Below are positions 26,771 through 45,657 of a stretch of DNA of 64,000 bases, piece by piece. The position numbers were made by a program, and so were the translations under genes. Under the pieces are notes generated by a model that saw nothing but the letters and a program-made list of their open reading frames with translations, searched no databases and had not been told where the DNA came from. The stretch is from positions 62,001 through 126,000 of the forward strand of contig JABWCF010000006.1 of the NCBI GenBank assembly GCA_013359255.1. Direction: 5' to 3'. This stretch comes from Flavobacteriales bacterium (GTDB lineage Bacteria; Bacteroidota; Bacteroidia; Flavobacteriales_E; Vicingaceae). The first letter of the stretch is position 1. Each line of letters starts with the position of its first letter.

Positions 26771-26787
26771 TAATAAATTATACAAAA

Positions 26788-27120
26788 ATGAATATAGAAA
26801 ATACAAAAGCTCAAATGCGAAAAGGGGTGCTCGAGTTTTGCATACTAAGTATTCTATCGGGAGGAGAAGCCTACCCTTCTGAAATTATTGATAAATTAAG
26901 AAACAGTAAACTTATTGTAGTAGAGGGTACACTTTATCCGTTACTTACTCGATTAAAAAATACAGATATACTTACTTACAGATGGGAAGAATCGACTTCC
27001 GGACCTCCAAGAAAATACTATAGACTTACCGATAAGGGAAAAATGTTTTTAAAGGAACTCTATTCTACTTGGAATGAATTGGTAGAAGCCGTAGAAAAAA
27101 CAAGCCATAATAATATCTAA
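26788..27120 (+). CDS. PadR-family transcriptional regulator
   Basis: The 110-residue protein is a short winged helix-turn-helix regulator of the PadR-s1 type. It has KGVLEFCILSILSGGEAYPSE in the first helices (GEAYPSEIIDKL is the landmark), VVEGTLYPLLTRLKN in the recognition area and the GPPRKYYRLTDKGK wing. It lies 18 nt before a PspC-domain membrane protein gene, a recurrent pairing in Bacteroidota in which PadR is presumed to control envelope-stress-like genes. The ligand is unknown. Confidence 0.95.
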   Translation: MNIENTKAQMRKGVLEFCILSILSGGEAYPSEIIDKLRNSKLIVVEGTLYPLLTRLKNTDILTYRWEESTSGPPRKYYRLTDKGKMFLKELYSTWNELVEAVEKTSHNNI

Positions 27121-27138
27121 CATAAATAAAGCACAAAA

Positions 27139-28785
27139 ATGAATCAAACAGTTACAGCAAACATAAGTGGCATTGTATTTCATATTGAAATAGATGCTTA
27201 TGATAAGTTAAAAAACTACTTATCCGAAATTAAAAAACGCTTTGAAGTGGCCGAAGAAAGAGAAGAAATAATGCTGGATATAGAAGCACGAATAGCCGAA
27301 GTTTTTAAAAGTAAACTAAACGAGCAAAATCAGGTAATATCAATGCCTCATGTAGACGAAGTGATTTCACTAATGGGACAACCAGAAGATTTTGCGGGTC
27401 AATCAGAAGAAGAAAGTAAAACCACTTCTCAACAAGAGTTTAAAACAGGGAAACGAATTTATCGATCCGGTGAAGATAAAATTTTGGCTGGTGTGTGCTC
27501 CGGTATTGCGGCCTACTTCGGTTTCGACCCAATATGGCTGCGATTGGTGTTTGCCATTGCTTTTTTTGTTTTCGGTTTCGGATTCCCGTTATATATTATT
27601 TTATGGATTATAATTCCCGAGGCTAAAACTAGAGCTCAAAAATTAGAAATGCGTGGAGAGCCTGTAAATATAGATAATATTGAAAAAACGATTAAAAAGG
27701 AAGCAGAAGAGTTTAGTAACAGAGTAAAGGATTGGGAAAAAGAAGGTGGGGCAAAAAAGCTCGAAAATATGATTAAAAACTTTGTAGAATTCATTATTTC
27801 TATTTTCACTCTTTTTATTAAAACATTTGCTAAAATATTGGGAGCCCTCTTTCTTTTTATTGGTCTTTTACTGCTTACTGCTCTTATAACAAGTGCTTTC
27901 GATTTAAAAACTATTACTATAGATGGATATAATATTTCTATATTCACAGTAGAAGACTTTGCAAATGCATTTTTTGAAAATTCCGAACAATATACGCTTG
28001 CTCTCATTGCATTATTTTTTATAGTAATGGCTCCTATATTTACTTTTATTTACAGCGGTTTAAAACTGCTTTTGAAAATAAAAAGCAATCATAAAATAAT
28101 TTCTTTAGCACTTTTTATATTTTTTACAACAGGCATTATTCTTTCTATAATAGTAGGGATTTTAGTTTCTTCTGAATTTAAAAGAGAGGCTGTGGCAACG
28201 AAAGTTTATAAAATTAAAAACCACGATGTTTTATATATAGATATTTTAAATGTTGACAAAAATTCCTTTATAATAAATGGTAAAGTGAAAAATATTAAAC
28301 CTTTTTATTTCACCGAAGATTCAATCTTTTACTCTTATCCCGAATTAAATATATTGCAGGCAACAGGTGACTCTGCTTATATTGAAATTTCAAAATCGGC
28401 CAAAGGAATATTACAAAAAGAGGCCGAGATAAGAGCCGAAAATATCAAATATAATTTCTATCAAAAAGACAGCACTTTATATTTTAATCAATACTTTTCC
28501 TCACACAAAGAAGATAAAATTAGAGGACAAAAAGTGCATATTACTCTCTATTTACCTATAAACTACGCTGTACATTTTACAAAAAACAGTAAAAAAATTA
28601 TTTACGATGTAGAAAATGTAACCAACACGCACGACTTAAAAATGATAAACCACACCTGGGTTATGCTCGAAAAAGGACTAACTTGCGTTGCATGCGAAAA
28701 AATAAAAGGACTATCGATGCAAGAATTACAGAAATTACAACTACCCAAAGATACTGTGAACGAAAAAATAATTTCTACTCCTTAA
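27139..28785 (+). CDS. PspC-domain membrane protein
   Basis: The 548-residue protein starts with a soluble region of about 90 residues with a TVTANISGIVFHIEID opening. It then has a PspC domain at about 108-160 (YRSGEDKILAGVCSGIAAYFG, landmark ILAGVCSGIAAYFG) with one or two helices. Three or more further membrane segments follow between about 220 and 345, and a soluble C-terminal part of about 200 residues. PspC domains take part in sensing membrane stress. It is cotranscribed with padR. Its end overlaps the end of the converging protease gene by 11 nt. Confidence 0.88.
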   Translation: MNQTVTANISGIVFHIEIDAYDKLKNYLSEIKKRFEVAEEREEIMLDIEARIAEVFKSKLNEQNQVISMPHVDEVISLMGQPEDFAGQSEEESKTTSQQEFKTGKRIYRSGEDKILAGVCSGIAAYFGFDPIWLRLVFAIAFFVFGFGFPLYIILWIIIPEAKTRAQKLEMRGEPVNIDNIEKTIKKEAEEFSNRVKDWEKEGGAKKLENMIKNFVEFIISIFTLFIKTFAKILGALFLFIGLLLLTALITSAFDLKTITIDGYNISIFTVEDFANAFFENSEQYTLALIALFFIVMAPIFTFIYSGLKLLLKIKSNHKIISLALFIFFTTGIILSIIVGILVSSEFKREAVATKVYKIKNHDVLYIDILNVDKNSFIINGKVKNIKPFYFTEDSIFYSYPELNILQATGDSAYIEISKSAKGILQKEAEIRAENIKYNFYQKDSTLYFNQYFSSHKEDKIRGQKVHITLYLPINYAVHFTKNSKKIIYDVENVTNTHDLKMINHTWVMLEKGLTCVACEKIKGLSMQELQKLQLPKDTVNEKIISTP

Positions 28786-30436
28786 CTATTTTTTTAGAGT
28801 AAAACAACTCGTTTCCTGTAACGGTTAGCATATAGATTCCCCTGTCTAAATGCGATAAATTTCCCACTTCTATCGTATTTACCGAATTTTCACTCATGTT
28901 ATAAAAGGCCGAATACACTTTCTTCCCCGAAATATCCTTCAACTCAAGAATAACCATTTGATTCGTTGCCGATTCTAAAACAAAAGAAAAGGATTTGTTA
29001 AACGGGTTCGGGTACACATGGGTATTTTCTACCAGGTTTATTGTCTTGCTCTGCGATAGAATAATATTCGCCATGCAAAAATCTGGTATTCCATACCCAT
29101 ATAAAGAATCATCGGGAAAATTATACTTGTGTGCACTTTTTATGATGGCATCATAAATTTCCATATTAGTCATTGTTGGATTAGCCTGCCACAAACAAGC
29201 CACAGCCCCACAGGTTATTGGTGAAGAAAACGAAGTACCATTGGCAGTTTGTATTCCGCCCCCCATAGAAGAAACAATGGCATCACGTCCTTGAGCACAA
29301 ACATTCGGTTTAATATCGCCATCGGCACTTGGCCCCCGAGAACTGAAATTTGTAATTACACCTCCTGCATCAACTGCCCCAACAGTAAGAGCACTATCGG
29401 CATCGGCAGGTGCTCCAATATGGTACCAGACAGATGCTCCACTATTTCCGGCCGAACAAACAGCAAACATTCCTTTCGATACAGCAAAATCTGAAGCCAC
29501 CGATATTCTACACGTATTTCCGTCTAAATCTTGATAGGAGTGATTCATAGAGTTATCATCAAATGTGGTATAACCCAAAGAAGTGTTTAATATGTCTGCT
29601 CCAACGCTATCGGCAAATTCCGCCCCTGCCACCCAGTTATCTTCTTCTACCAAAAACTCTGTATCGGCATCTTCGGTACGCAACAACCAATAACTTGCTT
29701 TGGGAGAGGTTCCTACAATTTGTCCACTTAAATACCCACCCATACAAGAAAGTACCATGGTTCCGTGCCAGTGGTCTTCAAACACCATTGTGTCTCCGGT
29801 TACAAAATCGCGAGTACCCAAAATCTGATGATTCGCCCAAAGACTATCGAATACAGGTAATGAATCTACTTTATAAAATCCGGCATCTAGCACTGCTACT
29901 ACCATTCCTTCTCCACTATACCCCATAAAATGCATGCAATCTCCTCCAATCATATTTATTTGATTAAACGAGGGGCCATAATTGTAAGCCAGCAACTCTT
30001 TGTTCTTACTTGGCGAAGCTTGTTTAGCATTTGAGAGATTATTAAATGTTTCGATATAATCATCATTAGGTCTTTTGTACCGCATTACCGGTTGTACACT
30101 TTGCACAAAAGGAAGTGCTGAAATGGCTGCCAAGGCATTGGCATCGGTAGTTTGTATGCTAATAGCATTGAACCATCGCGAGGTATATCTCAAATTTACA
30201 TTTCCGGTGGCCAACACCAACTGAACATACATGGGGGTAACCGGCAAATCGTTCTGAGTAACCGGAATATTTTGGTTTACTCTTCGCTGTATAGCACGTT
30301 GCGACAAGAAAGCCGAAGGATTATTTACAGTAAAGGGAGTTCCATTTTTATCTTTGAATACTATCCAATATTTATCGTAGGCCATAGCAGAAACACACAC
30401 AGAAAGAGCTAATAAAAAGAATACCATTTTTTTCAT
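28775..30436 (-). CDS. Secreted subtilisin-like serine protease with T9SS tail
   Basis: The 553-residue protein (from the ATG at 30436) has a signal peptide (KKMVFFLLALSVCVSAMA), an inhibitor-like propeptide at about 20-150, and an S8 peptidase domain. Catalytic residues are Asp184 (VLDAG), His224 (HGT) and Ser402 (GTSFSSP), with the oxyanion Asn331 (AGNSG). The last 80 residues (VYPNPFNKSF onward, ending KKIVKE) form a T9SS type A sorting domain, so it is exported to the surface or medium. An upstream TTG-type start would put 23 extra residues before the signal peptide and is rejected. Confidence 0.94.
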   Translation of the reverse strand: MKKMVFFLLALSVCVSAMAYDKYWIVFKDKNGTPFTVNNPSAFLSQRAIQRRVNQNIPVTQNDLPVTPMYVQLVLATGNVNLRYTSRWFNAISIQTTDANALAAISALPFVQSVQPVMRYKRPNDDYIETFNNLSNAKQASPSKNKELLAYNYGPSFNQINMIGGDCMHFMGYSGEGMVVAVLDAGFYKVDSLPVFDSLWANHQILGTRDFVTGDTMVFEDHWHGTMVLSCMGGYLSGQIVGTSPKASYWLLRTEDADTEFLVEEDNWVAGAEFADSVGADILNTSLGYTTFDDNSMNHSYQDLDGNTCRISVASDFAVSKGMFAVCSAGNSGASVWYHIGAPADADSALTVGAVDAGGVITNFSSRGPSADGDIKPNVCAQGRDAIVSSMGGGIQTANGTSFSSPITCGAVACLWQANPTMTNMEIYDAIIKSAHKYNFPDDSLYGYGIPDFCMANIILSQSKTINLVENTHVYPNPFNKSFSFVLESATNQMVILELKDISGKKVYSAFYNMSENSVNTIEVGNLSHLDRGIYMLTVTGNELFYSKKIVKE

Positions 30437-30455
30437 ATACAACAAATTATTTTTC

Positions 30456-30463
30456 CAAATGTA
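30456..30463 (-). promoter_or_regulatory. -7 box (TACATTTG) of the subtilase gene
   Basis: Minus strand 30463-30456 reads TACATTTG, 19 nt before the ATG at 30436. It is a full TAnnTTTG match and supports the shorter start. Confidence 0.6.
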
Positions 30464-30578
30464 ATAAAATAGTAAACAAGAAGCCTTTACTTCTTCCAAA
30501 AACATTGATGAAGATAGAACTGATAATTCCTTGCAAATGGCTATTTTTTCATACTTTTATAGCGAAAATTTAAGCAGT

Positions 30579-32225
30579 ATGTCAAAAAATTTAAGCGAAT
30601 TATCCGGAAGGAAAGGATTAACCAATAACCTCTTTGAAAAAATTGGAGATGCCGCTAAGGAAAGTGGCACACCATCGGAAGAAAGACTCAACGAATTATC
30701 TGAAGAATTTTTAATAGGTAAAGCAAGCACTTATGGAACGGCCACGTTTTACGACTTTACCAAACCCGAAAACAAAAATAAAAAAGCATATATATGCAAT
30801 GGAAGTGCCTGCGTTTGTGCCGGAACACAACAAAATGTAAAAGAAATTCTTTCGAAACAATTTTCTGAAAATGAAATAGGACATATGACTTGCCTCGGAA
30901 GATGCTACGAAAACAGTGCCTTTCATTATCAAGGAAAAAATTTTTCCGGACAGGATATTCTGCATTTCAAAAAAGAAAATTTAATTCAAAACGATTTACT
31001 TAACTACAATGTAAAATCCACTACTACTCCTCTTCTTACCATACCTTACAGTGGCTTCGAAAATCATTATGCGCTATTAAAAAAAGCACTAAACCAAACA
31101 CCCGATGAGTTATTAAGCGAAATAAAAAAATCAAATCTGAGAGGAAGAGGTGGTGCTGGTTTTCCTATGGGCTTTAAATGGGAAGCCTGTAAAAATGAAA
31201 ATAACGATACTAAATTCATTATCTGCAATGCTGATGAAGGCGACCCTGGAGCTTATTCCGATAGGTACTTATTGGAACAACGCCCCCACTCTGTATTGTT
31301 CGGAATGATTATAGCCGGTTATATTACAGGAGCCAAATGGGGGGTGCTATACATTCGGGCAGAATATCCTGAAGCAGCCAGCATTGTTCAACAAGCTATT
31401 GATGAATTAAAAGAGAATAATTTACTCGGAAAAAACATACATCATTCTAACTTTAATTTCGATTTTAAAATTATAAAAGCACAAGGTGCCTACATTTGCG
31501 GAGAAGAAACTGCACTAATAAACTCCATAGAAGGGCAACGTCCTGAAGTGCGTACCCGACCACCCTTTCCTACCCAAATAGGCTTATTTAATAGACCTAC
31601 AGTAGTAAACAATGTAGAAACACTGGCAGCAGTACATTCTATTATAAAAAATGGAGGCGAAGAATATGCTAAACTGGGTACAGAAAAATCGAAAGGAACC
31701 AAACTGGTTTGCCTCGATAGTTTTTTTAATAACCCGGGTATTTACGAAGTAGAAATGGGCACTCCCCTTTCCTCTGTAATAAATGAACTGGGAGGAGGTT
31801 TTAAAATTCCTGTTAAAGCCATGCAAATTGGAGGTCCGCTTGGAGGCATTGTTCCTCTTGAAAAAATAAATAATTTAAACATCGACTTCGAATCTTTTGC
31901 TAAACAAGGATTTTTACTCGGACACGCATCGGTGGTATGTATTCCAACGAATTTTCCAATGATGAAATATTTAGAACACCTTTTTGAATTTGCAGCTTAC
32001 GAAAGTTGCGGAAAATGTTTTCCCTGTCGCCTCGGTACCAAACGAGGACACGAACTAACCCAAAAAGCCCTAAACGAAAACTACAAAATAGATCGTGCTT
32101 TATTTGCCGATTTACTGAATACTCTTCAGCAAGGTTCGTTATGTGCCCACGGGGGAGGTATTCCGCTTCCTGTAAAAAATGCTTTACACTATTTTAACGA
32201 AGAGTTGAAAATGTACTTTAACTGA
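30579..32225 (+). CDS. NAD-linked formate dehydrogenase, fused NuoE-NuoF-type subunit
   Basis: The subunit passes electrons from the formate-oxidising subunit to NAD via FMN. In the 548-residue form, residues 1-140 are NuoE-like with a [2Fe-2S] site Cys73, Cys78, Cys105, Cys109. Residues 150-548 are NuoF-like: GRGGAGFP at 189-196 and NADEGDPGAY at 217-226 for FMN/NADH, GEETALINSIEGQRP, and a [4Fe-4S] site Cys477, Cys480, Cys483, Cys522. An in-frame ATG at 30537 could add 14 residues. The next gene starts one base after its stop. Two subunits that are separate in Complex I are fused here. Confidence 0.9.
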   Translation: MSKNLSELSGRKGLTNNLFEKIGDAAKESGTPSEERLNELSEEFLIGKASTYGTATFYDFTKPENKNKKAYICNGSACVCAGTQQNVKEILSKQFSENEIGHMTCLGRCYENSAFHYQGKNFSGQDILHFKKENLIQNDLLNYNVKSTTTPLLTIPYSGFENHYALLKKALNQTPDELLSEIKKSNLRGRGGAGFPMGFKWEACKNENNDTKFIICNADEGDPGAYSDRYLLEQRPHSVLFGMIIAGYITGAKWGVLYIRAEYPEAASIVQQAIDELKENNLLGKNIHHSNFNFDFKIIKAQGAYICGEETALINSIEGQRPEVRTRPPFPTQIGLFNRPTVVNNVETLAAVHSIIKNGGEEYAKLGTEKSKGTKLVCLDSFFNNPGIYEVEMGTPLSSVINELGGGFKIPVKAMQIGGPLGGIVPLEKINNLNIDFESFAKQGFLLGHASVVCIPTNFPMMKYLEHLFEFAAYESCGKCFPCRLGTKRGHELTQKALNENYKIDRALFADLLNTLQQGSLCAHGGGIPLPVKNALHYFNEELKMYFN

Positions 32226-32226
32226 A

Positions 32227-33438
32227 ATGAAACTATTTAATCCAGACACCTCTTTTTATAATAGCTACTACGATAAAGACAGGTTTTTACTGGCTTGGAG
32301 AATTTCAGTTGCTTTCACCTCCATCTTTACCATTATAACTATTTTATATGCCATTTCAGACTTCAAAGCCGCAATCACGTCAGGACTTGTTTTATTAACC
32401 GGTATTTTTTGTATTCTATTTTTACATTTTACTAAAAAATTTAAACCCCTATTTTGGGTTTATGCTATTTCCGGAAGTATACTGGCAAATCTTTCCATTT
32501 TTACAGTAATGAATTTTACGCATTATGTAGATTTTATGTGGATTTTGGTTACCATCTTTCTCGCTTTTATTGGAATAAACCGAAAAGCAGGCTTCTTGAT
32601 GATTGGGTTAAATCTCATACTTATTTCCATCTACTTTTATTTTTTTTTAAATACGCATATCGAAGTTCTTCCTCCAAGAAGTACCGTTCAAATTGTTTCC
32701 GAACTCATTGAAATTACTTTTGTGCTCTTTGTGTTTTCTTACTTAATCTATCAGTTTGTCGAATTCCAAAATTATTCGCAATACGAACTTAAAAAAACAC
32801 TATCCGAACTAGAAAAAACAAACCAAGTCATCTCCTCAAAAAACAAAGAAAACACGCTACTACTTAAAGAAATACACCATCGGGTAAAAAACAATTTGCA
32901 AATCATAATCAGTTTGCTTCGTTTACAAAAAAATAATTTATCTGCCGAAACTGAAAAGAGTTTTGAAGAAGCCATCAGCCGAATAATGACGATGTCGCTT
33001 ATCCATAAAACACTTTATCAATCAGAAAATCTAAATACCATCAATTTTGAATCGTACGTTACTGAATTAGTGAATACAATTTCTTCGTACAGTTGTAAGG
33101 GAAACATACAAACTACTATACACTCCGACTACAATCAAATTGGCACTAACACTATGGTGCCTTTGGGCTTAATGTTAAATGAACTCCTTACCAATTCTTT
33201 TAAACATGCATTTAACGACAACCTAAACGGAGTAATACACATTTCCATTCAATCAGATTCCAATCATTATTTTGCCTTAAAATACAGCGATAACGGCACT
33301 TGGAAAAATCCACCAGAACTCCACAACCATTTTGGAATGGAACTAATAGAAACATTAACGGAACAATTAGAAGGCTCATTTGTTAGAAAAGAATCTTCTT
33401 TTGTTTTCAACTTAAAAAATTTAGACCTTTTAAATTAA
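32227..33438 (+). CDS. Membrane sensor histidine kinase (HisKA_2) inside fdh operon
   Basis: The 403-residue protein has about six transmembrane helices in residues 25-178, a short coiled coil at about 183-212, and a HisKA_2 dimerisation domain with KEIHHRVKNNLQ (phospho-acceptor His217 or His218). A HATPase domain at about 305-400 carries GLMLNELLTNSFKHAF and YSDNGTW. There is no periplasmic sensor domain, so the membrane part is the likely sensor. It starts 1 nt after the NuoEF-type gene and ends 5 nt before the formate dehydrogenase alpha gene, so it is an integral operon member. No response regulator is near. Confidence 0.92.
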   Translation: MKLFNPDTSFYNSYYDKDRFLLAWRISVAFTSIFTIITILYAISDFKAAITSGLVLLTGIFCILFLHFTKKFKPLFWVYAISGSILANLSIFTVMNFTHYVDFMWILVTIFLAFIGINRKAGFLMIGLNLILISIYFYFFLNTHIEVLPPRSTVQIVSELIEITFVLFVFSYLIYQFVEFQNYSQYELKKTLSELEKTNQVISSKNKENTLLLKEIHHRVKNNLQIIISLLRLQKNNLSAETEKSFEEAISRIMTMSLIHKTLYQSENLNTINFESYVTELVNTISSYSCKGNIQTTIHSDYNQIGTNTMVPLGLMLNELLTNSFKHAFNDNLNGVIHISIQSDSNHYFALKYSDNGTWKNPPELHNHFGMELIETLTEQLEGSFVRKESSFVFNLKNLDLLN

Positions 33439-33443
33439 CTAGT

Positions 33444-36161
33444 ATGAATACAGCCTACATCAATAACAACCCCTATTCTTTTAATGCAGGAGAAAGCATT
33501 TTAGCCTTTGTAAAACGAATCGAAGGAAATAAAATTATTCCTACCCTTTGTGATGCTCCTAATTTAGACCCTTTTGGATCGTGCAGAGTATGTAGTGTGG
33601 AAGTAGCCATAGAAAAAAACGGCCACACCAAAACCGTAGCCTCTTGCCATACTCCGGTTACTAACGGCCTATACATATATCACGATACAGAATCCATCAG
33701 GCAATTAAGAAAAAACATAATAGAACTTGTTCTTACCGACCATCCTCTTACCTGCTTAACCTGCGAAGTAAACGGAAACTGCGAACTACAAGAAGTAGCT
33801 GCACGCGTAGGAATTACTGAAACACGCTACCCCGAAGGATCAAATCATCTTAACAGAGAAAAAGACCTTTCACACCCTTATATGCGTTCAGAATTATCTA
33901 AATGTATTAACTGCTACCGTTGCGTAAGAGCATGTGACGAAGTTCAGGGTGAAATGGTGTTAACCATGGCCGGAAGAGGATTTGATGCTCATATTGCCAA
34001 GAGTTTTAATCAATCGTTTTTCGAATCAGACTGTGTAAGTTGCGGGGCATGCTCACAAGCCTGCCCCACCTCGGCTATAGCCGATGTATTTCAATCTAAA
34101 TCTATACAAGCAACAAAAAAAACACGTACCGTTTGTACGTACTGCGGTGTTGGCTGCAACCTCGAAGTAGCTACCGTTGGAGGAGCAATAAAATCTATTC
34201 AGGCACCATACGATGCCGAAGTAAACGGTGGCCATACCTGTCTCAAAGGTCGTTACGCCTTTAAATTTTACAACCATCCGGAAAGACTACGCACTCCCTT
34301 AATAAAAAGAAATAAAAAATTTGAACCCGCCACATGGGAAGAAGCTTATGATTTTATTGCCACTCAACTTACCAGTATTAAAAATGAAAACGGCCCCGAT
34401 GCCATTGCCGGTATATCTTCAGCTCGCACTCCCAATGAAGAAAATTACTTGATGCAAAAATTTATGCGTGCCGTAATAGGCACCAATAATATCGATTGCT
34501 GTGCTCGCGTTTGCCACTCGCCTACTGCATTGGGTATGCAAAAAACATTCGGTACAGGTGCAGCCACCAACAGTATTGAAGATTTGGAGTATACCGATTG
34601 TATTTTTGTAATTGGGGCCAACCCAAGCAATGCACACCCTGTAACCGGAGCCAAATTAAAACAAAAGTTAATGAAAGGAATTACCGGTATTGTGGTAGAT
34701 CCCCGAAAAACAGACTTGGCAAAATATGCTACCTATCACTTACAACTTCGCCCCGGAACTAATGTAGCATTACTTAATATGATGTTGTATTTTATTATAT
34801 CGGAAGGTTTAGAAGATAAAGAATTTATTACCGCTCGTTGCGAGGGATACGAGGAAATGAAAACTGAAATTTTAAAATTAAACATCAACGAACTTGAAGA
34901 AATAACAGGAGTAAATAAAAATCTGGTTAGAGAAGCTTCTATAGCGTACGCTAAAGCCAATGCAGCTATGGAATTTCATGGCTTAGGTGTTACCGAACAC
35001 ACGCAAGGAACCTATACCGTGCAGCTAATTGCCGACTTAGCCATGATTACCGGAAACATAGGAAAAAAAGGAGCAGGAGTAAACCCTTTACGAGGGCAAA
35101 ATAATGTACAAGGAGCTGCCGACATGGGTGCACAGCCCCACCAAGGAGCCGGTTATTTAGACGTTACTAATCCAGAAATAAATCAGCGATACAACCAATT
35201 CTATGGAGCAAAAGTACCTAGTCATATTGGCTATAAAATTCCAGAAATGTTTGATGCTGCCCTTAACAGAAAACTAAAAGCATTGTGGATTATTGGTGAA
35301 GATGTAGTGCAAACCGACCCAAACACCCAAAAAGTAATGAAAGCCTTGGAAAGTTTAGACTTGTTAGTAGTATCTGAATTATTTATGACTGAAACAGCAA
35401 AATTAGCAACCGTTGTTTTACCTGCTTCTTCCTTTTTGGAAAAAGAAGGAACTTTTACCAACGGAGAAAGAAGAATTCAGCGTGTACAAAAAGTGGTAGA
35501 ACCTGTTGAAGGCACTAAACCCGATGGACAAATTATTGTAGAAATAATGCGAAAAATGGGTTACGAACAATGCGATTACACGGCAGAAAATATGCTGAAT
35601 GAAATTTCGCAAATTGTTCCTTTTTTTGCAGGTGTTAAATGGAAAGAGTTAGGAAACAACGGAAAGCAATGGCCCGTATTATCCAATGGAACCGACACCA
35701 AAATGCTACATACAAAAGAATTTACCAGAGGTAAAGGAAAATTCTTCTTCTACCCATTTAAAGAAAGTAACGAAATTGAAACTTACGGAAAAGACTACCC
35801 ATACATTATAACTACCAACAGGGAATTAGAACACTACAATTGTGGTGCAATGACCAGAAGAACCGGAAATGTTGAAATTGTTACAGAAGATGTTTTATTA
35901 ATTAATCCTGAAGATGCACAAGAAAATAAAATTAAAGACGGAGAATTTGTATGCGTAGAATCTCCAAGAGGTAAAGTAGATATTAAAGCAAAGATTACAA
36001 CAGAAGTAAAACCCGGCATATTGAGTTCCACCTTTCATTTTCCAGAAATAATGTTAAACAATATTACTTCGAATGAGCATGACAGTGAGGCCATGTGCCC
36101 TGAATACAAAGTAGTGAGTTGCCGTATCCGAAAAAGTAAAGGAAAACATTTAACTCATTAA
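33444..36161 (+). CDS. Formate dehydrogenase alpha subunit, NuoG-type with MGD site
   Basis: The 905-residue subunit oxidises formate at a bis-MGD molybdenum or tungsten centre. Residues 1-80 hold a [2Fe-2S] ferredoxin (Cys36, 47, 50, 68). A His-Cys3 cluster follows (His100, Cys104, 107, 113), then two [4Fe-4S] clusters (Cys154/157/160/164 and 197/200/203/207). The MGD-domain cluster is Cys231/234/238/266. The metal ligand is Cys357 in RVCHSP, a cysteine and not selenocysteine. The C-terminal molybdopterin-binding domain starts near residue 780. Likely substrate formate; CO2 reduction is also possible. The sulfurtransferase FdhD is encoded at 2668-3504. Confidence 0.93.
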   Translation: MNTAYINNNPYSFNAGESILAFVKRIEGNKIIPTLCDAPNLDPFGSCRVCSVEVAIEKNGHTKTVASCHTPVTNGLYIYHDTESIRQLRKNIIELVLTDHPLTCLTCEVNGNCELQEVAARVGITETRYPEGSNHLNREKDLSHPYMRSELSKCINCYRCVRACDEVQGEMVLTMAGRGFDAHIAKSFNQSFFESDCVSCGACSQACPTSAIADVFQSKSIQATKKTRTVCTYCGVGCNLEVATVGGAIKSIQAPYDAEVNGGHTCLKGRYAFKFYNHPERLRTPLIKRNKKFEPATWEEAYDFIATQLTSIKNENGPDAIAGISSARTPNEENYLMQKFMRAVIGTNNIDCCARVCHSPTALGMQKTFGTGAATNSIEDLEYTDCIFVIGANPSNAHPVTGAKLKQKLMKGITGIVVDPRKTDLAKYATYHLQLRPGTNVALLNMMLYFIISEGLEDKEFITARCEGYEEMKTEILKLNINELEEITGVNKNLVREASIAYAKANAAMEFHGLGVTEHTQGTYTVQLIADLAMITGNIGKKGAGVNPLRGQNNVQGAADMGAQPHQGAGYLDVTNPEINQRYNQFYGAKVPSHIGYKIPEMFDAALNRKLKALWIIGEDVVQTDPNTQKVMKALESLDLLVVSELFMTETAKLATVVLPASSFLEKEGTFTNGERRIQRVQKVVEPVEGTKPDGQIIVEIMRKMGYEQCDYTAENMLNEISQIVPFFAGVKWKELGNNGKQWPVLSNGTDTKMLHTKEFTRGKGKFFFYPFKESNEIETYGKDYPYIITTNRELEHYNCGAMTRRTGNVEIVTEDVLLINPEDAQENKIKDGEFVCVESPRGKVDIKAKITTEVKPGILSSTFHFPEIMLNNITSNEHDSEAMCPEYKVVSCRIRKSKGKHLTH

Positions 36162-36164
36162 AAT

Positions 36165-37748
36165 TTGTACTCCATTTTTCGATATCTTGTATTTTATCTT
36201 CTTATTAGTACTTATGCATTTTCTAATACTACCGATTCGCTTAGATACGAATTAGAGAAAGCTCACATCGATTCTCAAAAAGTTTTTCTACTCAATAAAC
36301 TTGCGTACGAATATATTTCAATAAAAAATGATTCTACATTATTATTTGTGGGGCAAGCACTGAATATTATTCAAAACATGGATAATAAGAATACGATTTG
36401 GAAAAATAATTACAAAGCTAAATTATACACACACTTAGGGGCTTTCCATCAACACAGAAGCAATGTATCTACCGCTTTAAATTATTACTTTAAAGCCCTG
36501 AAATTGTACGAAACAACGGGTAACATTTCCGGCCTTTTAACCCTTTATGAAAAAATCGGATTGTCTTATTCTGACTTGGCTAACTACGAAAAAGCCTTGG
36601 TGTTTTACGTTAAAGCAATCAAATTGTATGAAAAATATAAAATTACAGATGGAAAAGCCTCTGTATTGGGAAACATTGGAACAGTTTATGCTGAACAATC
36701 AAACTTTCCAAAGGCTTTAGATTTTTTTTTTAACTCTTTAAAAATAAACGAAGAATTAAATAATAAAGCAGGTATTGCCAACTGCTATACCAATATTGGG
36801 GTATTGTATAAAAATCAATTAAATATTGAAAAAGCGTTAGAGTATTACTCCAAAGCACTTCGTATAAATGAAGAGCTAAATTATAAAAGAGAAATGGCCC
36901 TCATCATCGGTAATATAGCCAATATTTATGCCGAGCAATTAAAAACAGAAGAGGCAATGAAATATTATTTAAGAGCTATTGAGATAAATAATGAAATCAA
37001 TAACAAAAGAGGTCTTTCTCATATCATGGGAAATATTGGGTGTTTATATATAGACCTAAATGACCTCCCTAAAGCATTCCCTTATTTAAAAGATGCATTA
37101 AAAATTTCGGAAGAAATTGGCAATAAATATTTAATTTCTATTTGGCAGAGTAACCTAGGTGAAGTGTATACGAAAAATAAAAATTATAAAGAAGCAGAAA
37201 TTATTTTAGAAAAATCATTACAAATAACAAATCAAATTGGAGCCTTAAGTATTAAGGAACGTAACGAAAAATTATTAAGCGATATTTATTCAGAAACAGG
37301 GAGACACAAATTAGCTTACGAACACTACAAAAACTATATTTTAATAAGGGACAGTTTAAAAAACGAGGAAAACTCAAAAAAACAAATTCGCCAACAAATG
37401 CAATATGAGTACAGTAAAAAACAAGCCGCTGATAGTATTTTATTTGCAAAAGAAAAAAAAATAAAAGAAATTGAAATTACTCGTCAAAATGCAGTTATAA
37501 AAGCAAAAAGAAATCAACAATATCTTCTAATGGGCAGTTTAGTTTTGTCTTTATTTTTCATTGGATTTATTTATAAACGTATTAAAATCATTCGAAATCA
37601 GAAAAAAATAATTGAAAAACAAAAACTTTTTGTAGAACAAAAACAAAAAGAAATTTTAGACAGTATCTATTATGCAAAAAGAATACAAGATTGTATGATG
37701 CCAAAAGAAAAATATATTCTCAAAAAACTGAAGGACTTAAAAAAGTAG
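36165..37748 (+). CDS. TPR sensor protein lacking its usual C-terminal output domain
   Basis: The 527-residue protein has a signal peptide (FRYLVFYLLISTYAFS), about seven tetratricopeptide repeats at residues 55-400 (40-residue units with the pattern ALxYYxKALxIxEExxNKxG), one transmembrane helix at about 450-468 and a cytoplasmic coiled coil. It ends with DSIYYAKRIQDCMMPKEKYI and a few lysine-rich residues. In Bacteroidota proteins of this type, that segment normally leads directly into a SpoIIE/PP2C phosphatase domain, which is absent here. The start is TTG at 36165, needed for the signal peptide, 4 nt after the preceding stop. Confidence 0.85.
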   Translation: MYSIFRYLVFYLLISTYAFSNTTDSLRYELEKAHIDSQKVFLLNKLAYEYISIKNDSTLLFVGQALNIIQNMDNKNTIWKNNYKAKLYTHLGAFHQHRSNVSTALNYYFKALKLYETTGNISGLLTLYEKIGLSYSDLANYEKALVFYVKAIKLYEKYKITDGKASVLGNIGTVYAEQSNFPKALDFFFNSLKINEELNNKAGIANCYTNIGVLYKNQLNIEKALEYYSKALRINEELNYKREMALIIGNIANIYAEQLKTEEAMKYYLRAIEINNEINNKRGLSHIMGNIGCLYIDLNDLPKAFPYLKDALKISEEIGNKYLISIWQSNLGEVYTKNKNYKEAEIILEKSLQITNQIGALSIKERNEKLLSDIYSETGRHKLAYEHYKNYILIRDSLKNEENSKKQIRQQMQYEYSKKQAADSILFAKEKKIKEIEITRQNAVIKAKRNQQYLLMGSLVLSLFFIGFIYKRIKIIRNQKKIIEKQKLFVEQKQKEILDSIYYAKRIQDCMMPKEKYILKKLKDLKK

Positions 37749-37754
37749 AAACGG

Positions 37755-38039
37755 TTACAGCAATCTTAACTCATCAACCAACATCTTTCCCATCTTCTCA
37801 TTTATTTTCTGAACAATTTCCGTTCTAAGATAAGACAATTCGTGCCGCAGCGGAGCCGAATCTAATTTTACCGTTAATACCTTTTTTTTATACACCACAT
37901 CAATGGTATGCTTTGCAATGGTTTTACCCATTACATCTTCCCATGCCTTAATAAGGTCTATCCCTTGCATTTTTTCTTCCAGGCCATACATACGAAGCAA
38001 GGCATGAATAGCTTCTTTGAGAGTGGTTTCGTTTTTCAT
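37755..38039 (-). CDS. DUF721 family protein (DciA-like)
   Basis: The 94-residue protein matches the DUF721 group in its DLIKAWEDVMGKTIAKHT opening motif and in the VKLDSAPLRHELSYLR segment. DciA-type members of this family bind and help load the replicative helicase; whether this short form does so is not known. It lies 8 nt after recF on the same strand, the standard Bacteroidota arrangement of recF with a DUF721 gene. Confidence 0.88.
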   Translation of the reverse strand: MKNETTLKEAIHALLRMYGLEEKMQGIDLIKAWEDVMGKTIAKHTIDVVYKKKVLTVKLDSAPLRHELSYLRTEIVQKINEKMGKMLVDELRLL

Positions 38040-38047
38040 TTTTAAAT

Positions 38048-39145
38048 TTAAACCTCGCTTGCTTGTAGAATATTAATTTTTAAAGGCATCTGTAGTTTTT
38101 CAAACACCTGAGGTATTCGCTGCGGATGAGTATCTGTAATGAAAAGTTGTCCAAAATAGTCGTTTACCAAAATGGCAATCAGTCTCGCCAAACGTTCATC
38201 ATCGAGTTTATCGTAAATATCATCGAGCAAAATAATAGGTTTCGTTTTTAATTTTTCTGTGATATATTGGGCTTGAGCCAAACGCAACGAAAGTAAATAC
38301 GTTTTTTGCTGCCCCTGAGAGGCAAATTTCTTTACCGGAAAATTATTGATAAAAAAAGCCATATCATCTTTATGTATTCCGCAGGTTGTATGTGTAGCGG
38401 CTCTATCTCTTGCATAGGTATTTTCTAACAACTCTGTAAAGTTATTCTCTAACAGCATACTTTCGTACACCAACGATACTGTTTCATTTACATCAGATAT
38501 TTGAGAATAATACGATCTGAAAATTGGAATAAATTCCCGAACAAACTCGCACCGGGCTTCGTAAATAGGGTTGCCAAATTTTACTAGCTGCTCATTCCAT
38601 AAAAAAACACTTTCTTTATCGCACCTACCAGAAGCTGCCATTTGCTTCAACAACACGTTTCGTTGGGCTAAAGCCCTATTATAATTTAATAAGTTGTCTA
38701 AGTAATTTTTATTACTTTGAGCAATAATGCCATCAAGAAACTTTCTTCGCGTTTCACTCCCCTCTAAAATAAGTAAAACATCGGCAGGCGAAACCATTAC
38801 CAATGGAAATTTACCAATATGATCGGCCAAACGCTCGTAAACCTTTTTATTTAACTTAAATATTTTTTTTTGGCTTCGCTTTATACTGCAATGCACAAGG
38901 TATTCCTCCCCGTCTTTCTGATAAAGACCTTTCAGCATAAAAAAATCTTTTTCATTCTGTATATTCTGCGAGTCAATAGGATTAAAAAAACTTTTACAAA
39001 ATGAGGTATAATAAATAGCATCGAGCAAATTCGTTTTCCCAATTCCGTTATTTCCTCCAAAAAAGTTTGCCTTCTCCGAAAATTCAAAGAATGCCTCTGA
39101 ATAATTTTTAAAATTAAAAAGCGAAAGTTCTTTTAGGTACATCAT
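38048..39145 (-). CDS. recF: DNA replication and repair protein RecF
   Basis: RecF binds gapped DNA and with RecO and RecR loads RecA. The 365-residue SMC-like ATPase has Walker A GGNNGIGKTN at about residues 31-40, the VSPADVLLILEGSETRRKFLD signature area (landmark GSETRRKFLD), SQGQQKT and the Walker B LLDDIYDKLD. Two ATG codons in a row start the frame. The -7 box ends 1 nt upstream of the first, so the second may be the start of a leaderless mRNA. It is followed by a DUF721 gene. Confidence 0.96.
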   Translation of the reverse strand: MMYLKELSLFNFKNYSEAFFEFSEKANFFGGNNGIGKTNLLDAIYYTSFCKSFFNPIDSQNIQNEKDFFMLKGLYQKDGEEYLVHCSIKRSQKKIFKLNKKVYERLADHIGKFPLVMVSPADVLLILEGSETRRKFLDGIIAQSNKNYLDNLLNYNRALAQRNVLLKQMAASGRCDKESVFLWNEQLVKFGNPIYEARCEFVREFIPIFRSYYSQISDVNETVSLVYESMLLENNFTELLENTYARDRAATHTTCGIHKDDMAFFINNFPVKKFASQGQQKTYLLSLRLAQAQYITEKLKTKPIILLDDIYDKLDDERLARLIAILVNDYFGQLFITDTHPQRIPQVFEKLQMPLKINILQASEV

Positions 39146-39146
39146 G

Positions 39147-39154
39147 CAAATTTA
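39147..39154 (-). promoter_or_regulatory. -7 box (TAAATTTG) touching the recF start
   Basis: Minus strand 39154-39147 reads TAAATTTG. Its last base is 1 nt from the first recF ATG, so initiation of transcription would fall on or just after that ATG and the second ATG (39142) would begin a leaderless mRNA. No good -33 box is present, so the box could be fortuitous. Confidence 0.45.
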
Positions 39155-39250
39155 AGGCTTAGTTGGTATTAAATTCAGTTTGTCTCAAACAAAATAAATC
39201 TTAGCTCCTTAATCGGTTAGCACCTTCTTTTATTTAAAGTTTGCGAATTG

Positions 39251-39282
39251 TTTGAAATAAACAAAAACGCGGACTAAATTTA
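39251..39282 (+). promoter_or_regulatory. Promoter of the fad operon
   Basis: TTTG at 39251-39254 and TAAATTTA at 39275-39282 are separated by 20 nt, matching the Bacteroidota promoter layout except for A in the last position of the -7 box. The leader to the ATG at 39324 is about 37 nt. Confidence 0.55.
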
Positions 39283-39323
39283 CACCATACAAAGAAATAT
39301 CTTCATTTAGCAAAAATTTAGCA

Positions 39324-41729
39324 ATGAACAGAAAGATTAAAAAAGTAGCTGTACTAGGCTCAGGGGTTATGGGTTCTCGTATTGCATGTCATTTTGCAAA
39401 TATCGGTTTACAAGTTTTGCTGCTCGACATTGTTCCAAACGAACTGCTCGAAGAAGAAAAACAAAAAAAACTTACTTTAAACGATAAAGCGGTACGTAAC
39501 CGTATTGTAAATACAGCCTTACAAAATGTGTTAAAATCTAATCCCTCACCAATTTACCTTAAAAAGTTTGCCGCCCACATTGCTACCGGAAATATGGAAG
39601 ATGACTTACCTCAAATTTCCGATTGCGACTGGATTATAGAAGCGGTAATAGAACGTCTAGATATTAAAAAAATAGTATTCGAAAAAATCGAAAAGTACCG
39701 CAAACAAGGAAGTATTGTAAGTTCAAACACTTCGGGAATTCCTATGCAACTAATGATAGAAGGAAGAAGCGAAGACTTTAAAAAACACTTTTTAGGCACC
39801 CATTTTTTCAATCCACCACGTTACCTAAAATTGTTAGAAATTATTCCCACCCCGGAAACCGATGAAAACATTGTACATTTTTTAGAAGATTTCGGAACTC
39901 GCTTTTTAGGCAAAACCACTGTGCTTTGCAAAGACACTCCCGCTTTCATTGCTAACCGAATTGGAGTTTATTCCATTCAGTCCCTTTTTCATCTTATTAC
40001 CGAAATGCAATTAACCGTTGAAGAAGTAGATAAACTTACAGGCCCTGTGTTGGGCAGACCCAAATCGGCCACCTTTAGAACCTGCGATGTAGTCGGATTG
40101 GACACATTGGTACACGTAGCAAACGGATTAAAACAAAATTGTCCTAACGATGAAGCTCACCCCCTTTTCGAAACGCCCTTCTACATTAGTAAAATGATAG
40201 AAAATAAATGGCTTGGAAGCAAAACCAAGCAAGGTTTCTACAAAAAAATTAAAAACGAAAAAGGTGAAAACGAAATTCTTGCTCTCAATTTAAATACCTT
40301 AGAATATCAGCCACAACAAAAAGTAAAATTTGCAACTCTCGAAGCCGCCAAGCAAGCCGACCATCTTTCTGATAGACTGAAAATTTTATTCTCTGGCAAA
40401 GACAAAGCCGGAGAGTTTTACCGAAAATCATTCTTCGGGCTATTTGCCTACGTTTCAAACCGAATTCCCGAAATAGCAGAAGAACTTTACAAGATAGACG
40501 ATGCCCTTAATGCTGGTTTTGGTTGGCAAACAGGACCTTTCGAAACATGGGATATACTAGGTGTTGAAACCGTTTGTAAACAAATGGAAGGGGCCGGCAT
40601 AAAACCCGCCCAGTGGGTTTACGAAATGCTGCAAAAAAATATATTTTCTTTTTATAAAATCGAAAACGGAAAAAAATACTTTTATAACATTTCGTCTAAA
40701 ACATACACCCTCATTCCTGGAAGCGAAAATATTTTAATTCTTTCAAACCTTCGTTACTCAAATGTAATTTGGAAAAATTCAGGAACTACTCTTACCAACC
40801 TAGGTGATGGAATTATAAACCTTGAATTCCATACCAAAATGAATACTATGGGAAGTGAAGTGTTAGAGGGAATAAACAAAGCCATAGACATTGCCGAAAA
40901 AGATTTTTTAGGACTTACCATTTATAACGAAGGCGAAAACTTTTCTGCAGGAGCTAATGTGGGATTAATATTTATGATGGCTGCAGAACAAGAATACGAT
41001 GAACTAGACTTTGCCATCAGAGCCTTCCAAAACACCATTATGCGCGTCCGTTACTCCTCTATTCCCGTTGTAGCTGCCCCACATAACCTTACGCTAGGCG
41101 GAAGCTGCGAACTGTGCATGCATTCTGATAAAGTAATAGCCCACGCAGAAACATACATGGGTTTGGTTGAATTTGGAGTTGGCGTTATTCCTGGCGGTGG
41201 CGGTACCAAAGAATTTGTATTACGATTATCTGACGAAATTAACGAAGGAGATGTAAAAATAAACGCCCTACGTAAACGATTTCTTACCATTGGTCAGGCT
41301 CAAGTTTCAACCTCTGCACACGAAGCCTTTGAATTGGGATACTTGCGTAAGGGGCAAGATGAAGTAATAGTAAGTCGTGCACACCAACTACAATACGCAA
41401 AAAAAGCCGCCCTTAACATGGCCCAAAAAGGCTACACCACACCTATTCCTCGTACCGATATTGAAGTTCTAGGAAACGAAGGATTAGGAATCGTGTACGT
41501 AGGAGCCCACTCCATGAAAAGCGGAAACTACATCTCTGAACACGACCAATTGATAAGCGAAAAATTAGGATACATTATGTGCGGAGGAAACCTTTCCCAA
41601 CCCACCAAGGTTTCTGAGCAGTATTTGTTAAGCCTCGAAAGAAAAGCTTTTTTAGAATTATGTGCCGAACGAAAAACGCTAGAAAGATTGCAAAGTATTA
41701 TTACAAGCGGCAAAGTGCTTCGTAACTAA
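39324..41729 (+). CDS. fadN: 3-hydroxyacyl-CoA dehydrogenase / enoyl-CoA hydratase, FadN type
   Basis: The bifunctional beta-oxidation enzyme hydrates enoyl-CoA and oxidises 3-hydroxyacyl-CoA with NAD. The 801-residue protein has the NAD-binding loop LGSGVMGSRIA at residues 11-21, HFFNPPRYLKLLEIIPT after the Rossmann domain and a second dehydrogenase helix domain. A C-terminal crotonase domain begins at about residue 480, with oxyanion elements EGENFSAGAN and GVIPGGGGTKE. The dehydrogenase-first order is that of FadN, opposite to FadB. It is first in an operon with thiolase and acyl-CoA dehydrogenase genes. Confidence 0.94.
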   Translation: MNRKIKKVAVLGSGVMGSRIACHFANIGLQVLLLDIVPNELLEEEKQKKLTLNDKAVRNRIVNTALQNVLKSNPSPIYLKKFAAHIATGNMEDDLPQISDCDWIIEAVIERLDIKKIVFEKIEKYRKQGSIVSSNTSGIPMQLMIEGRSEDFKKHFLGTHFFNPPRYLKLLEIIPTPETDENIVHFLEDFGTRFLGKTTVLCKDTPAFIANRIGVYSIQSLFHLITEMQLTVEEVDKLTGPVLGRPKSATFRTCDVVGLDTLVHVANGLKQNCPNDEAHPLFETPFYISKMIENKWLGSKTKQGFYKKIKNEKGENEILALNLNTLEYQPQQKVKFATLEAAKQADHLSDRLKILFSGKDKAGEFYRKSFFGLFAYVSNRIPEIAEELYKIDDALNAGFGWQTGPFETWDILGVETVCKQMEGAGIKPAQWVYEMLQKNIFSFYKIENGKKYFYNISSKTYTLIPGSENILILSNLRYSNVIWKNSGTTLTNLGDGIINLEFHTKMNTMGSEVLEGINKAIDIAEKDFLGLTIYNEGENFSAGANVGLIFMMAAEQEYDELDFAIRAFQNTIMRVRYSSIPVVAAPHNLTLGGSCELCMHSDKVIAHAETYMGLVEFGVGVIPGGGGTKEFVLRLSDEINEGDVKINALRKRFLTIGQAQVSTSAHEAFELGYLRKGQDEVIVSRAHQLQYAKKAALNMAQKGYTTPIPRTDIEVLGNEGLGIVYVGAHSMKSGNYISEHDQLISEKLGYIMCGGNLSQPTKVSEQYLLSLERKAFLELCAERKTLERLQSIITSGKVLRN

Positions 41730-41745
41730 CTAAACTTAAACCCAA

Positions 41746-42924
41746 ATGAACGCATACATTGTAAGTGCATACCGAACAGCCGTGGGAAAAGCCAACAAAG
41801 GCGGATTCCGTTTTACAAGATCCGATGAATTGGCAAAAACAGTGTTGAAACACCTTATGACCCAACATCCATCTGTACAACCTGAAGAAATAGACGACCT
41901 GATAGTGGGCAATGCCATGCCCGAGGCCGAACAAGGTTTAAACATGGCAAGGCTTATCTCGTTAATGAGTTTTCAATCTGAAAAAGTACCCGGTATGATT
42001 GTAAATCGTTTTTGTGCATCTGGGTTAGAGGCAATAGCCATAGCCGCCTCTAAAATTCATGCAGGTATGGCTAATTGTATTTTAGCAGGCGGGGCTGAAA
42101 GTATGAGTCAAATTCCTATGGGCGGCTGGAGAGTGGTTCCTAATGCCGATGTGGCAAAACAACATCCAGACTGGTATTGGGGCATGGGGCTAACAGCCGA
42201 AGCTGTGGCAAAAGAGTTCTCCGTATCTCGTGAAAAACAAGACGAGTTTGCCTTCCTCTCGCATCAAAAAGCGGTAAGAGCCAATGAAGAAGCAAGATTT
42301 AAAAGTGAAATTGTTCCAGTTTCCGTAACAGAAAGATACCCGGATATCAATGGAAATATAAAAGAAAAAACTTTTACTATAGAAACCGATGAAGGACCTA
42401 GAAATGACACAAGCATCGAATCGCTTTCTAAGTTAAAACCCGTTTTTGCCACAAACGGAAGTGTTACCGCGGGTAACTCCTCTCAAACATCAGATGGTGC
42501 GGCATTTGTAATGGTGGTTTCTGAAAACTTTCTTAAAAAACACAAACTTACCCCTCTGGCACGTATGGTAAGTTATGCTACTGCGGGCGTAGAGCCTCGC
42601 ATTATGGGAATAGGCCCGGTAGCGGCTATACCCAAAGCCTTGCAATTAGCAGGAATAAAGACAGAACAAATAGACCTCATAGAGTTAAATGAAGCATTTG
42701 CTTCACAATCGTTAGCCGTTATAAAAAAATTAGATCTCAATCCGGATATTATAAACGTAAACGGAGGAGCCATTGCTTTGGGTCACCCTCTGGGTTGTTC
42801 AGGAGCCAAGCTTTCTGTTCAAATTTTAAACGAATTAAAAAAACAAAATAAAAAATATGGCTTAGTTTCCATGTGTGTTGGTACAGGACAAGGAGCAGCC
42901 GGAGTATTTGAAATATTTCATTAA
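41746..42924 (+). CDS. fadA: Acetyl-CoA C-acyltransferase (thiolase)
   Basis: The thiolase cleaves 3-oxoacyl-CoA with CoA in the last step of the beta-oxidation cycle. The 392-residue length is normal. The nucleophile is in the NRFCASGLEA motif (about Cys89), the GGAIALGHPLGCSGA motif holds the catalytic histidine, and the C-terminal cysteine is in MCVGTGQGAAG. It starts 16 nt after fadN and forms the mitochondrial-trifunctional-like pair with it. Confidence 0.96.
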   Translation: MNAYIVSAYRTAVGKANKGGFRFTRSDELAKTVLKHLMTQHPSVQPEEIDDLIVGNAMPEAEQGLNMARLISLMSFQSEKVPGMIVNRFCASGLEAIAIAASKIHAGMANCILAGGAESMSQIPMGGWRVVPNADVAKQHPDWYWGMGLTAEAVAKEFSVSREKQDEFAFLSHQKAVRANEEARFKSEIVPVSVTERYPDINGNIKEKTFTIETDEGPRNDTSIESLSKLKPVFATNGSVTAGNSSQTSDGAAFVMVVSENFLKKHKLTPLARMVSYATAGVEPRIMGIGPVAAIPKALQLAGIKTEQIDLIELNEAFASQSLAVIKKLDLNPDIINVNGGAIALGHPLGCSGAKLSVQILNELKKQNKKYGLVSMCVGTGQGAAGVFEIFH

Positions 42925-42936
42925 AAAACACCTATT

Positions 42937-43431
42937 ATGAATGCAGAACTGGCAAGATTTAAAGAACAAATGTATGTTGTATCCTTAGACATTAAGGATA
43001 AATATTACGAAAGAGCACTTAATAAGATTAACGAACTCATCCAAATTTATCCCAACCGACCAGAGATTTATTACGAACTGGGGAAATTCAACTACAACAA
43101 TTGGGATAATGAATCGGCTGAAAAAAATTTTTTAAAAGCATTAGAAGTCGATCCTAATTATTTCCCCACCTATACCCAGTATGCATTAATATTAATTAAA
43201 GACAAACGGTATAAGGATGCAGAAATCATTCTAAACAAATCGAAAAAACTAAAAAACAAAGAAGATTCCGATATCTATTTTTACTTGGGTATGCTTTTTC
43301 AGCATCAGGGAAATTTAGATACCGCTATTGAAGCCTACACCCAATCACTCTACTACAGTATTAACGAAGCACAGATAGATTCAGCCATGAAATTTATTAA
43401 AGTTTGCAAAGAACTACGAGGTTGGGAATAA
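42937..43431 (+). CDS. Small TPR protein within the fad operon
   Basis: The 164-residue soluble protein consists of about three to four tetratricopeptide repeats: KINELIQIYPNRPEIYYELGK, with equivalent positions repeated at ALEVDPNYFPTYTQYAL and YFYLGMLFQHQGNLDTAIEAY. It has no signal peptide or membrane helix, so it is cytosolic. It lies 12 nt after fadA and 30 nt before fadE, thus inside the operon. TPRs mediate protein contacts; a scaffold or assembly role for the beta-oxidation enzymes is possible but unproven. Confidence 0.85.
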   Translation: MNAELARFKEQMYVVSLDIKDKYYERALNKINELIQIYPNRPEIYYELGKFNYNNWDNESAEKNFLKALEVDPNYFPTYTQYALILIKDKRYKDAEIILNKSKKLKNKEDSDIYFYLGMLFQHQGNLDTAIEAYTQSLYYSINEAQIDSAMKFIKVCKELRGWE

Positions 43432-43461
43432 ACCATAAAAATTTAATTTAAAAGATACCAT

Positions 43462-45237: not shown

Positions 45238-45270
45238 TTTTTTTTGTAAATTGGCTTTTTTTACATCACA

Positions 45271-45657
45271 ATGGAAAATCTATACATAGCCCCTACCATA
45301 CGTACCCCTGAAATAATTTTTGATTATGCCAAAGGCGAGTTAGAACTCATTGGGCGATCCATTCCTGAACATGCTATGCAATATTATACGCCTTTATTTA
45401 ACTGGATTGATGAATATGTAACAAAGCCGAAATCTTGTACCACTCTTAACGTAAAGATGGAATATTTTAATACCAGTTCATCTAAATGCGTGTTGGAAAT
45501 TATTAAAAAATTAAAAAAATTAACCGAAAATAATCTTCAACTTATAGTAAACTGGTATTACGAAGAAGATGATATTGATATTAAAAGAACCGGTGAAGAT
45601 TTTCAGGTTTTAACCGATTTTTCTTTCCAATTTCATGGAATAGACGATCTCTTCTAG
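45271..45657 (+). CDS. siaC: SiaC-family (DUF1987) regulatory phosphoprotein
   Basis: The 128-residue protein matches SiaC/DUF1987: TPEIIFDYAKGELELIGRSIPE at the start (landmark LIGRSIPEHAMQYY) and the MEYFNTSSSKCVLEII motif, whose serine/threonine run holds the phosphorylation site in characterised members. In Pseudomonas SiaC is phosphorylated by the SiaB kinase, dephosphorylated by the SiaA PP2C phosphatase and activates a diguanylate cyclase. Neither partner is next to it here, and a TPR protein in this window lacks its phosphatase domain. The adjacent fad operon ends 33 nt before. Confidence 0.88.
   Translation: MENLYIAPTIRTPEIIFDYAKGELELIGRSIPEHAMQYYTPLFNWIDEYVTKPKSCTTLNVKMEYFNTSSSKCVLEIIKKLKKLTENNLQLIVNWYYEEDDIDIKRTGEDFQVLTDFSFQFHGIDDLF

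Follow-up and report, generated by a model that had tools for sequence, protein, structure and literature searches.

A membrane HisKA_2 sensor kinase gene recurrently placed beside formate-dehydrogenase-type genes in a Flavobacteriales lineage

Introduction

The closest described counterparts of the enzyme genes analysed here are those of the NAD-dependent Mo/W formate dehydrogenases of solved structure (the 6tg9 type and the two-subunit 7vw6 type), and we know of no sensor kinase gene in the operons of these solved enzymes. To our knowledge, little has been established about the regulation of formate oxidation in Bacteroidota. The kinase considered below has its closest described relatives among the HisKA_2/HWE kinases (PF07568, PF07536). 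Orphan kinases of the HWE/HisKA2 type exist, and an extract of the work on Brucella PhyK (PMC12354254) provides an example. Among the open-licence papers found on formate dehydrogenase together with kinases, no title or first part of an abstract names a kinase gene lying between those of formate dehydrogenase subunits, and extracts of two papers (PMC9230146, PMC5852097) discuss kinases apart from formate dehydrogenase genes.

In the stretch of DNA analysed here (64,000 nucleotides as a whole, hereafter the window; genome G000, 2.9 Mb, window on C33), a gene for a membrane HisKA_2 sensor histidine kinase lies between two genes of a formate dehydrogenase. The kinase shares with the HisKA_2/HWE kinases the HisKA_2 domain and the HHRVKNNLQ motif, but differs from them in its membrane sensor domain, which received no Pfam name at the cut-off used, and in its location inside an enzyme operon. 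The enzyme has the alpha subunit in common with the 6tg9 and 7vw6 types, with NuoE and NuoF fused in the window, and the sensor kinase gene between the subunit genes would set the operon apart from both. We propose, with moderate confidence, that the kinase is an orphan two-component sensor kinase, which in this Flavobacteriales lineage shares a transcript with formate-dehydrogenase-type molybdoenzymes and is linked to them in function. Should this link hold, the operon would point to a sensor that can be tested and whose membrane domain is undescribed, and those genomes in which the enzyme was swapped and the kinase kept would serve as natural controls for the sensed cue.

The kinase gene and the operon of the window

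The kinase gene (32227-33438, forward strand; 403 aa, ATG start) was placed by the first-pass annotation between two formate dehydrogenase genes, with gaps of 1 nt and 5 nt, and the ORF and its neighbours are found exactly so, 1 nt past the stop of the NuoE/NuoF-type gene (32225) and 5 nt ahead of the FdhA start codon (33444). The NuoE/NuoF-fused, beta-type diaphorase subunit gene (30579-32225, forward strand; NuoEF below) has Pfam matches to Complex1_51K, NADH_4Fe-4S and, weakly, 2Fe-2S_thioredx (158 bits for PF01512 and 72 bits for PF10589), and the beta subunits of solved NAD-dependent formate dehydrogenases are among its matches. Its start is most likely the ATG at 30579 and not the upstream TTG at 30531, judging from the encoded N-terminus MSKNLSEL, which relatives share in similar form. 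The gene of the catalytic (alpha) subunit, FdhA, with a NuoG-like N-terminus (33444-36161, forward strand), scores 808 bits against the Fdh-alpha equivalog TIGR01591 (cut-off 666) and aligns over nearly its full length with 6tg9_A (783 bits) and 7vw6_A (527 bits). By sequence, the enzyme beside the kinase is thus classed as an NAD-type formate dehydrogenase. The FdhA gene is followed after 3 nt by a gene (36165-37748, forward strand) for a TPR protein in which no output domain was recognised; this gene is kept in the sister species G001; these four co-directional genes are separated by gaps of 1, 5 and 3 nt, and the membership of the TPR gene in the operon is uncertain. A gene for an FdhD-type accessory sulfurtransferase (2668-3504, reverse strand; PF02634, E 1e-66), 27 kb off, encodes a probable maturation factor outside the operon.

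The HisKA_2 domain of the kinase (32869-33087, residues 215-287), with the HHRVKNNLQ motif, scores 88.8 bits, above the curated Pfam cut-off of 22.3, and its phosphoacceptor motif is intact. It is followed by a HATPase-like stretch (33163-33345, residues 313-373), whose position fits and whose two profile matches are weak, both being below their curated cut-offs (22.6 vs. 27.4 bits and 17 vs. 26.4 bits); motifs resembling the N-box and the D-box are nearly invariant across the kinase copies. The PhyK model NF051872 was matched over residues 199-384 with 108.8 bits, under its equivalog cut-off of 750. The membrane sensor region (32275-32751, residues 17-175) has five clear membrane segments by hydropathy, and six helices in an AlphaFold model that was built from a three-sequence input and is of low confidence (pLDDT 43.8). 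Seven residues of this region (K17, G83, H99, F103, W105, F114, and G122) are invariant in all 14 close copies of the kinase described below, and H99 stands where the fourth helix begins in the low-confidence model. Most relatives of the kinase have a similar N-terminus, in support of the annotated start. A search of G000 with the whole kinase matched five other places, in the kinase part only, with 34-46% identity.

The dN/dS ratio of the kinase gene between G000 and G001 (NG86, one pair) is 0.088, with 0.077 for the membrane part and 0.094 for the rest; the reading frame is therefore no accident but a gene that is being maintained. The kinase is intact and under purifying selection, which acts on its membrane and kinase parts alike. 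In the same single comparison, the values for NuoEF, FdhA, and the TPR gene are 0.078, 0.047 and 0.167, respectively.

The expectation that the three genes are made together in similar amounts could be retained in part: the short gaps are compatible with a common transcript, but do not imply that the proteins reach equal levels. A scan with a Bacteroidota-type promoter pattern gave 8 matches vs. 6.7 expected, none of them at 26787-46169, and a sigma-70 scan gave 19 matches vs. 28.0 in shuffles, so that the promoter totals are at or below background. One weak sigma-70-like match (9/12) is located just upstream of the kinase gene, at 32183-32212. Terminator-like sites numbered 9 vs. 5.9.

Distribution and gene order in related genomes

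A profile of the membrane region, run over 46 genomes of the family, gave 19 matches in 15 genomes (E 0.001). With a threshold of our own of more than 120 bits, 14 of them, in 13 genomes, were classed as close copies, and five (54-90 bits; G061 C90, G004, G017, G032 C288, and G023 C194) were set aside as distant paralogs; the 12-20 kb stretches around these five contain no FDH-type gene. NuoEF or FdhA of the window type is encoded by 18 of the 46 genomes. Had the insertion been confined to the window genome, this would have spoken against a link, and a check for its recurrence had been proposed at the outset. The kinase gene is in fact found between NuoEF and FdhA in seven of the 18, the window genome included (G000, G001, G034, G005 C61, G061, G062, and G065), whereas NuoEF and FdhA adjoin each other with no kinase gene between them in eight (G029, G024, G023, G032, G066, G027, G010, and G063); the other three of the 18 (G068, G035, and G033) were assigned to neither arrangement.

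In three additional genomes (G013, G069, and G064), the kinase gene directly precedes a gene of another formate-dehydrogenase-like enzyme, of the FdhF/YdeP type. That of G013 matches TIGR01701 with 930 bits, and those of G069 and G064 are 87-89% identical to it. Altogether, ten of the 14 close copies lie directly upstream, on the same strand, of an FDH-type catalytic gene (seven of FdhA, in one case with a 127-aa ORF in between, and three of the FdhF/YdeP type), although the arrangements in G034 and G064 were pieced across two contig ends. The remaining four (G005 C4, G024, G023, and G032) are unlinked to an enzyme gene. G005 has two close copies (L058 10001-11203; L061 8973-10178), one alone beside murQ and one in the enzyme operon.

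The junction of NuoEF and FdhA accommodates other ORFs as well. A 127-aa ORF of the 23S_rRNA_IVP type separates NuoEF from the kinase gene in G065 (L087 10396-10779), and a similar one separates the kinase gene from FdhA in G062 (L089 10462-10845). At this junction, G051 carries genes for a D12 DNA methylase and a protein of unknown function (L049 9266-11253), and G068 has small ORFs before FdhA (L106 3309-3682) that, by their look, resemble the GxxExxY type.

Each of the 13 genomes that carry a close copy encodes either enzyme type, as do 15 of the 33 genomes without it (Fisher p 4.9e-4); when only the NuoEF-FdhA type is counted, the proportions are 10/13 and 8/33 (p 0.0019). These tests count related genomes as independent and include the linked copies, and several of the genomes are incomplete. 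The enzyme is still present in the three genomes that have only unlinked close copies (G023, G024, and G032).

A class-wide search of 395 genomes (E 1e-8) showed the membrane domain to be present in at least 14 class genomes, at least seven of them outside the family; at most eight candidates were scored in most genomes, so these counts may miss some. In the seven outside genomes, the FdhA query found no enzyme of the NuoEF-FdhA type: its matches were NuoG-like N-terminal parts in six and one YdeP-like protein in G232, encoded about 180 kb from a kinase copy. The link to formate is thus a trait of the family and not of the kinase type. Four class relatives outside the family that have the enzyme (G037, G050, G051, and G044) have no such kinase gene between NuoEF and FdhA.

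In the kinase tree, two groups are well supported, one of G000, G001, G034, G005 C4, G024, G023, and G032 (95/96) and the other of G061, G062, G064, G013, and G069 (100/99). The kinases of G065 and of the outside relative G232, as well as the second copy of G005, which does not group with the first, lie beside both groups in an order that the tree leaves open; hence, the close copies do not emerge as one clade. In the enzyme trees, kinase-bearing and kinase-free genomes are mixed. The FdhA of G034 groups with that of G068 (100/100) and its NuoEF with that of G029 (96/93), a pattern that replacement of the catalytic gene would produce; the two genes come from different clades in what appears to be a single operon lying across two contigs (L174 316-3045; L044 6532-8172). 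The kinase stays whereas its neighbouring enzyme changes, to the YdeP type in G013, G069, and G064 and in G034 to an FdhA from a different clade. The simplest history would be an old association of the kinase with the enzyme, followed by repeated loss, relocation, and enzyme replacement.

The recurrence of the kinase gene in seven of 18 genomes and before a second enzyme class favours a functional link, and its insertion is probably no matter of chance, the kinase more likely being a dedicated regulator. Alternatively, insertions may simply be tolerated at the junction of NuoEF and FdhA and at the murQ-flanked site described below, the kinase having arrived once, been inherited and now being lost, as a working protein that is unrelated to formate. 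The other ORFs at the same junction in G065, G062, G051, and G068, the operons of eight genomes without the kinase gene, and the kinase relatives in the seven outside genomes that lack this enzyme would all suit such a passenger. The kinase, however, recurs before two enzyme classes, purifying selection maintains it although identity falls to as little as 42%, and its close copies are found only in genomes with the enzymes, and we consider a passenger possible but rather unlikely.

The murQ-flanked site

Most enzyme-linked kinase copies are located at a site flanked by a divergent murQ gene (named by NCBIfam in G013; the others are 71-87% identical to it). The content of this site varies: it holds NuoEF-kinase-FdhA in G034, G061, G062, and G065, NuoEF-FdhA with no kinase gene in G029, G066, and G027 (in the latter across two contigs), kinase-YdeP in G013, G069, and G064, YdeP alone in G018, G067, and G022, and the kinase alone in G005 C4 and G024. 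In nine of the 14 close copies, murQ is next to the kinase gene or beyond NuoEF (in G065 with a small ORF in addition), and in two of these nine (G005 C4 and G024) no enzyme gene adjoins. The kinase might on these grounds belong to murQ, which encodes N-acetylmuramic acid 6-phosphate etherase, and sense the state or recycling of the cell wall, with the enzymes being mere neighbours at the site. BadF-type ATPases act as MurNAc kinases, and a gene of this type, scoring 28.5 bits and thus below its cut-off of 31.5, is found one gene from the kinase in G023 and G032. Against this stand the kinase genes of G000, G001, and G005 C61, which belong to the enzyme operon, murQ being absent from the stretches examined around the NuoEF-kinase-FdhA block, and the six genomes (G029, G066, G027, G018, G067, and G022) in which murQ borders the enzyme genes and the kinase is missing. 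An attachment to murQ appears improbable to us.

It is very improbable that the kinase serves as an anchor, a possibility raised by the first-pass annotation, or as a structural subunit that ties the soluble formate dehydrogenase to the membrane: the tight spacing of its gene between two subunit genes would fit, but the enzyme genes adjoin without it in eight of 18 genomes, it also precedes another enzyme class, four of its 14 close copies are unlinked, which rules out an obligatory role of this kind, and its phosphoacceptor motif, needless for an anchor, is intact.

Proposed role of the kinase

The insertion is recurrent, and a sensor linked to the formate enzyme is the leading reading of its function. 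The membrane domain of such a sensor would perceive a cue linked to formate oxidation, which may be formate itself, the quinone or redox state, or a membrane condition. The kinase would then phosphorylate itself on a histidine of HHRVKNNLQ, and the phosphate would go on to a response regulator from another locus. The close packing of the genes would maintain the co-expression of sensor and enzyme. It could be speculated from the structural model that H99 binds a ligand or a cofactor.

A more specific version, which we put forward tentatively and regard as unlikely in its entirety, would make the kinase a dedicated sensor of formate oxidation in Bacteroidota, in which the invariant H99-xxx-F-x-W motif at a membrane helix reads formate, quinone or redox state, which stays in place while the dehydrogenase is swapped between two classes, and which feeds a LytTR hub shared with other HisKA_2 kinases. 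The confinement of the close copies to genomes holding either enzyme and the recurrent placement before FdhA or YdeP genes speak for the broader reading of an enzyme-linked sensor. Against that broader reading count the kinase-free operons (8/18), the unlinked copies (4/14), and murQ as an equally frequent neighbour (9/14), as well as the other ORFs at the same junction, the weak promoter-like match before the kinase gene, and a candidate regulator type that, as described below, is non-discriminating.

Response regulators and other candidate partners

The remark of the first-pass annotation that no response regulator is close agrees with our Pfam scan of the window, in which none of the 44 ORFs scanned (four at E 0.01 and 40 at E 1e-8) matched one; the ORFs 39324-41729, 41746-42924, and 63318-63797, overlapping shadow ORFs, and most ORFs shorter than 120 aa were outside this set. 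We call the kinase an orphan because these 44 ORFs include no regulator. Described pairs of HisKA_2 kinases with LytTR regulators have their counterparts here in a kinase relative of G075, whose gene overlaps a response-regulator gene, and in two HisKA_2 paralogs of G000 with adjacent regulators of this type; in contrast, inspection by eye revealed no regulator gene adjoining any of the 14 close copies.

The G000 regulators most similar to that of G075 are the one on C7, with 44% and a Pfam assignment to LytTR, and the one on C16, with 38%; each of them adjoins another HisKA_2 kinase. The C16 LytTR-type regulator (G000 C16:71689) is encoded beside a PAS-HisKA_2 kinase, and regulators 72-99% identical to it are found in 11 other kinase-bearing genomes examined, while G032, the thirteenth, had no match at the search cut-off. 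The C7 query matched regulators in 42 of the 46 family genomes (1e-30). The C16 type is probably widespread in the family, and as regulators of this type occur in 42 of 46 genomes, they do not set the kinase-bearing genomes apart. C16 is, weakly, the best candidate partner to receive the phosphate from the kinase. The C7 regulator was dropped as a required partner, for it is missing from G001, whose kinase is 95% identical. In G065, the C16-type regulator gene has two in-frame TGA codons (L191 2927-3682), which may reflect a broken gene or an assembly error.

SpoIIE phosphatases encoded near some of the operons were also considered as partners and set aside, since there are 8-31 of them per genome in 15 genomes and chance neighbours are plausible. 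A TPR-SpoIIE gene follows FdhA in G034 (L174 3064-8698; Pfam), with a second one there by its look, and, also by its look, in G062 (L089 13684-15612). Large proteins that look like signalling proteins are encoded upstream of NuoEF in G032 and G023 (L046 12913-15999; L047 8161-11283). The TPR gene of the window (36165-37748) stops where its relatives run on into a SpoIIE phosphatase domain. In G001, two TPR-SpoIIE-type genes are arranged in tandem (L042 4881-7191), and the last residues of the window TPR gene match the end of the second of them, which suggests recombination between tandem copies. Farther downstream in the window, a gene for a SiaC-family regulatory phosphoprotein is located at 45271-45657 (PF09345), and G000 has about 30 SpoIIE matches.
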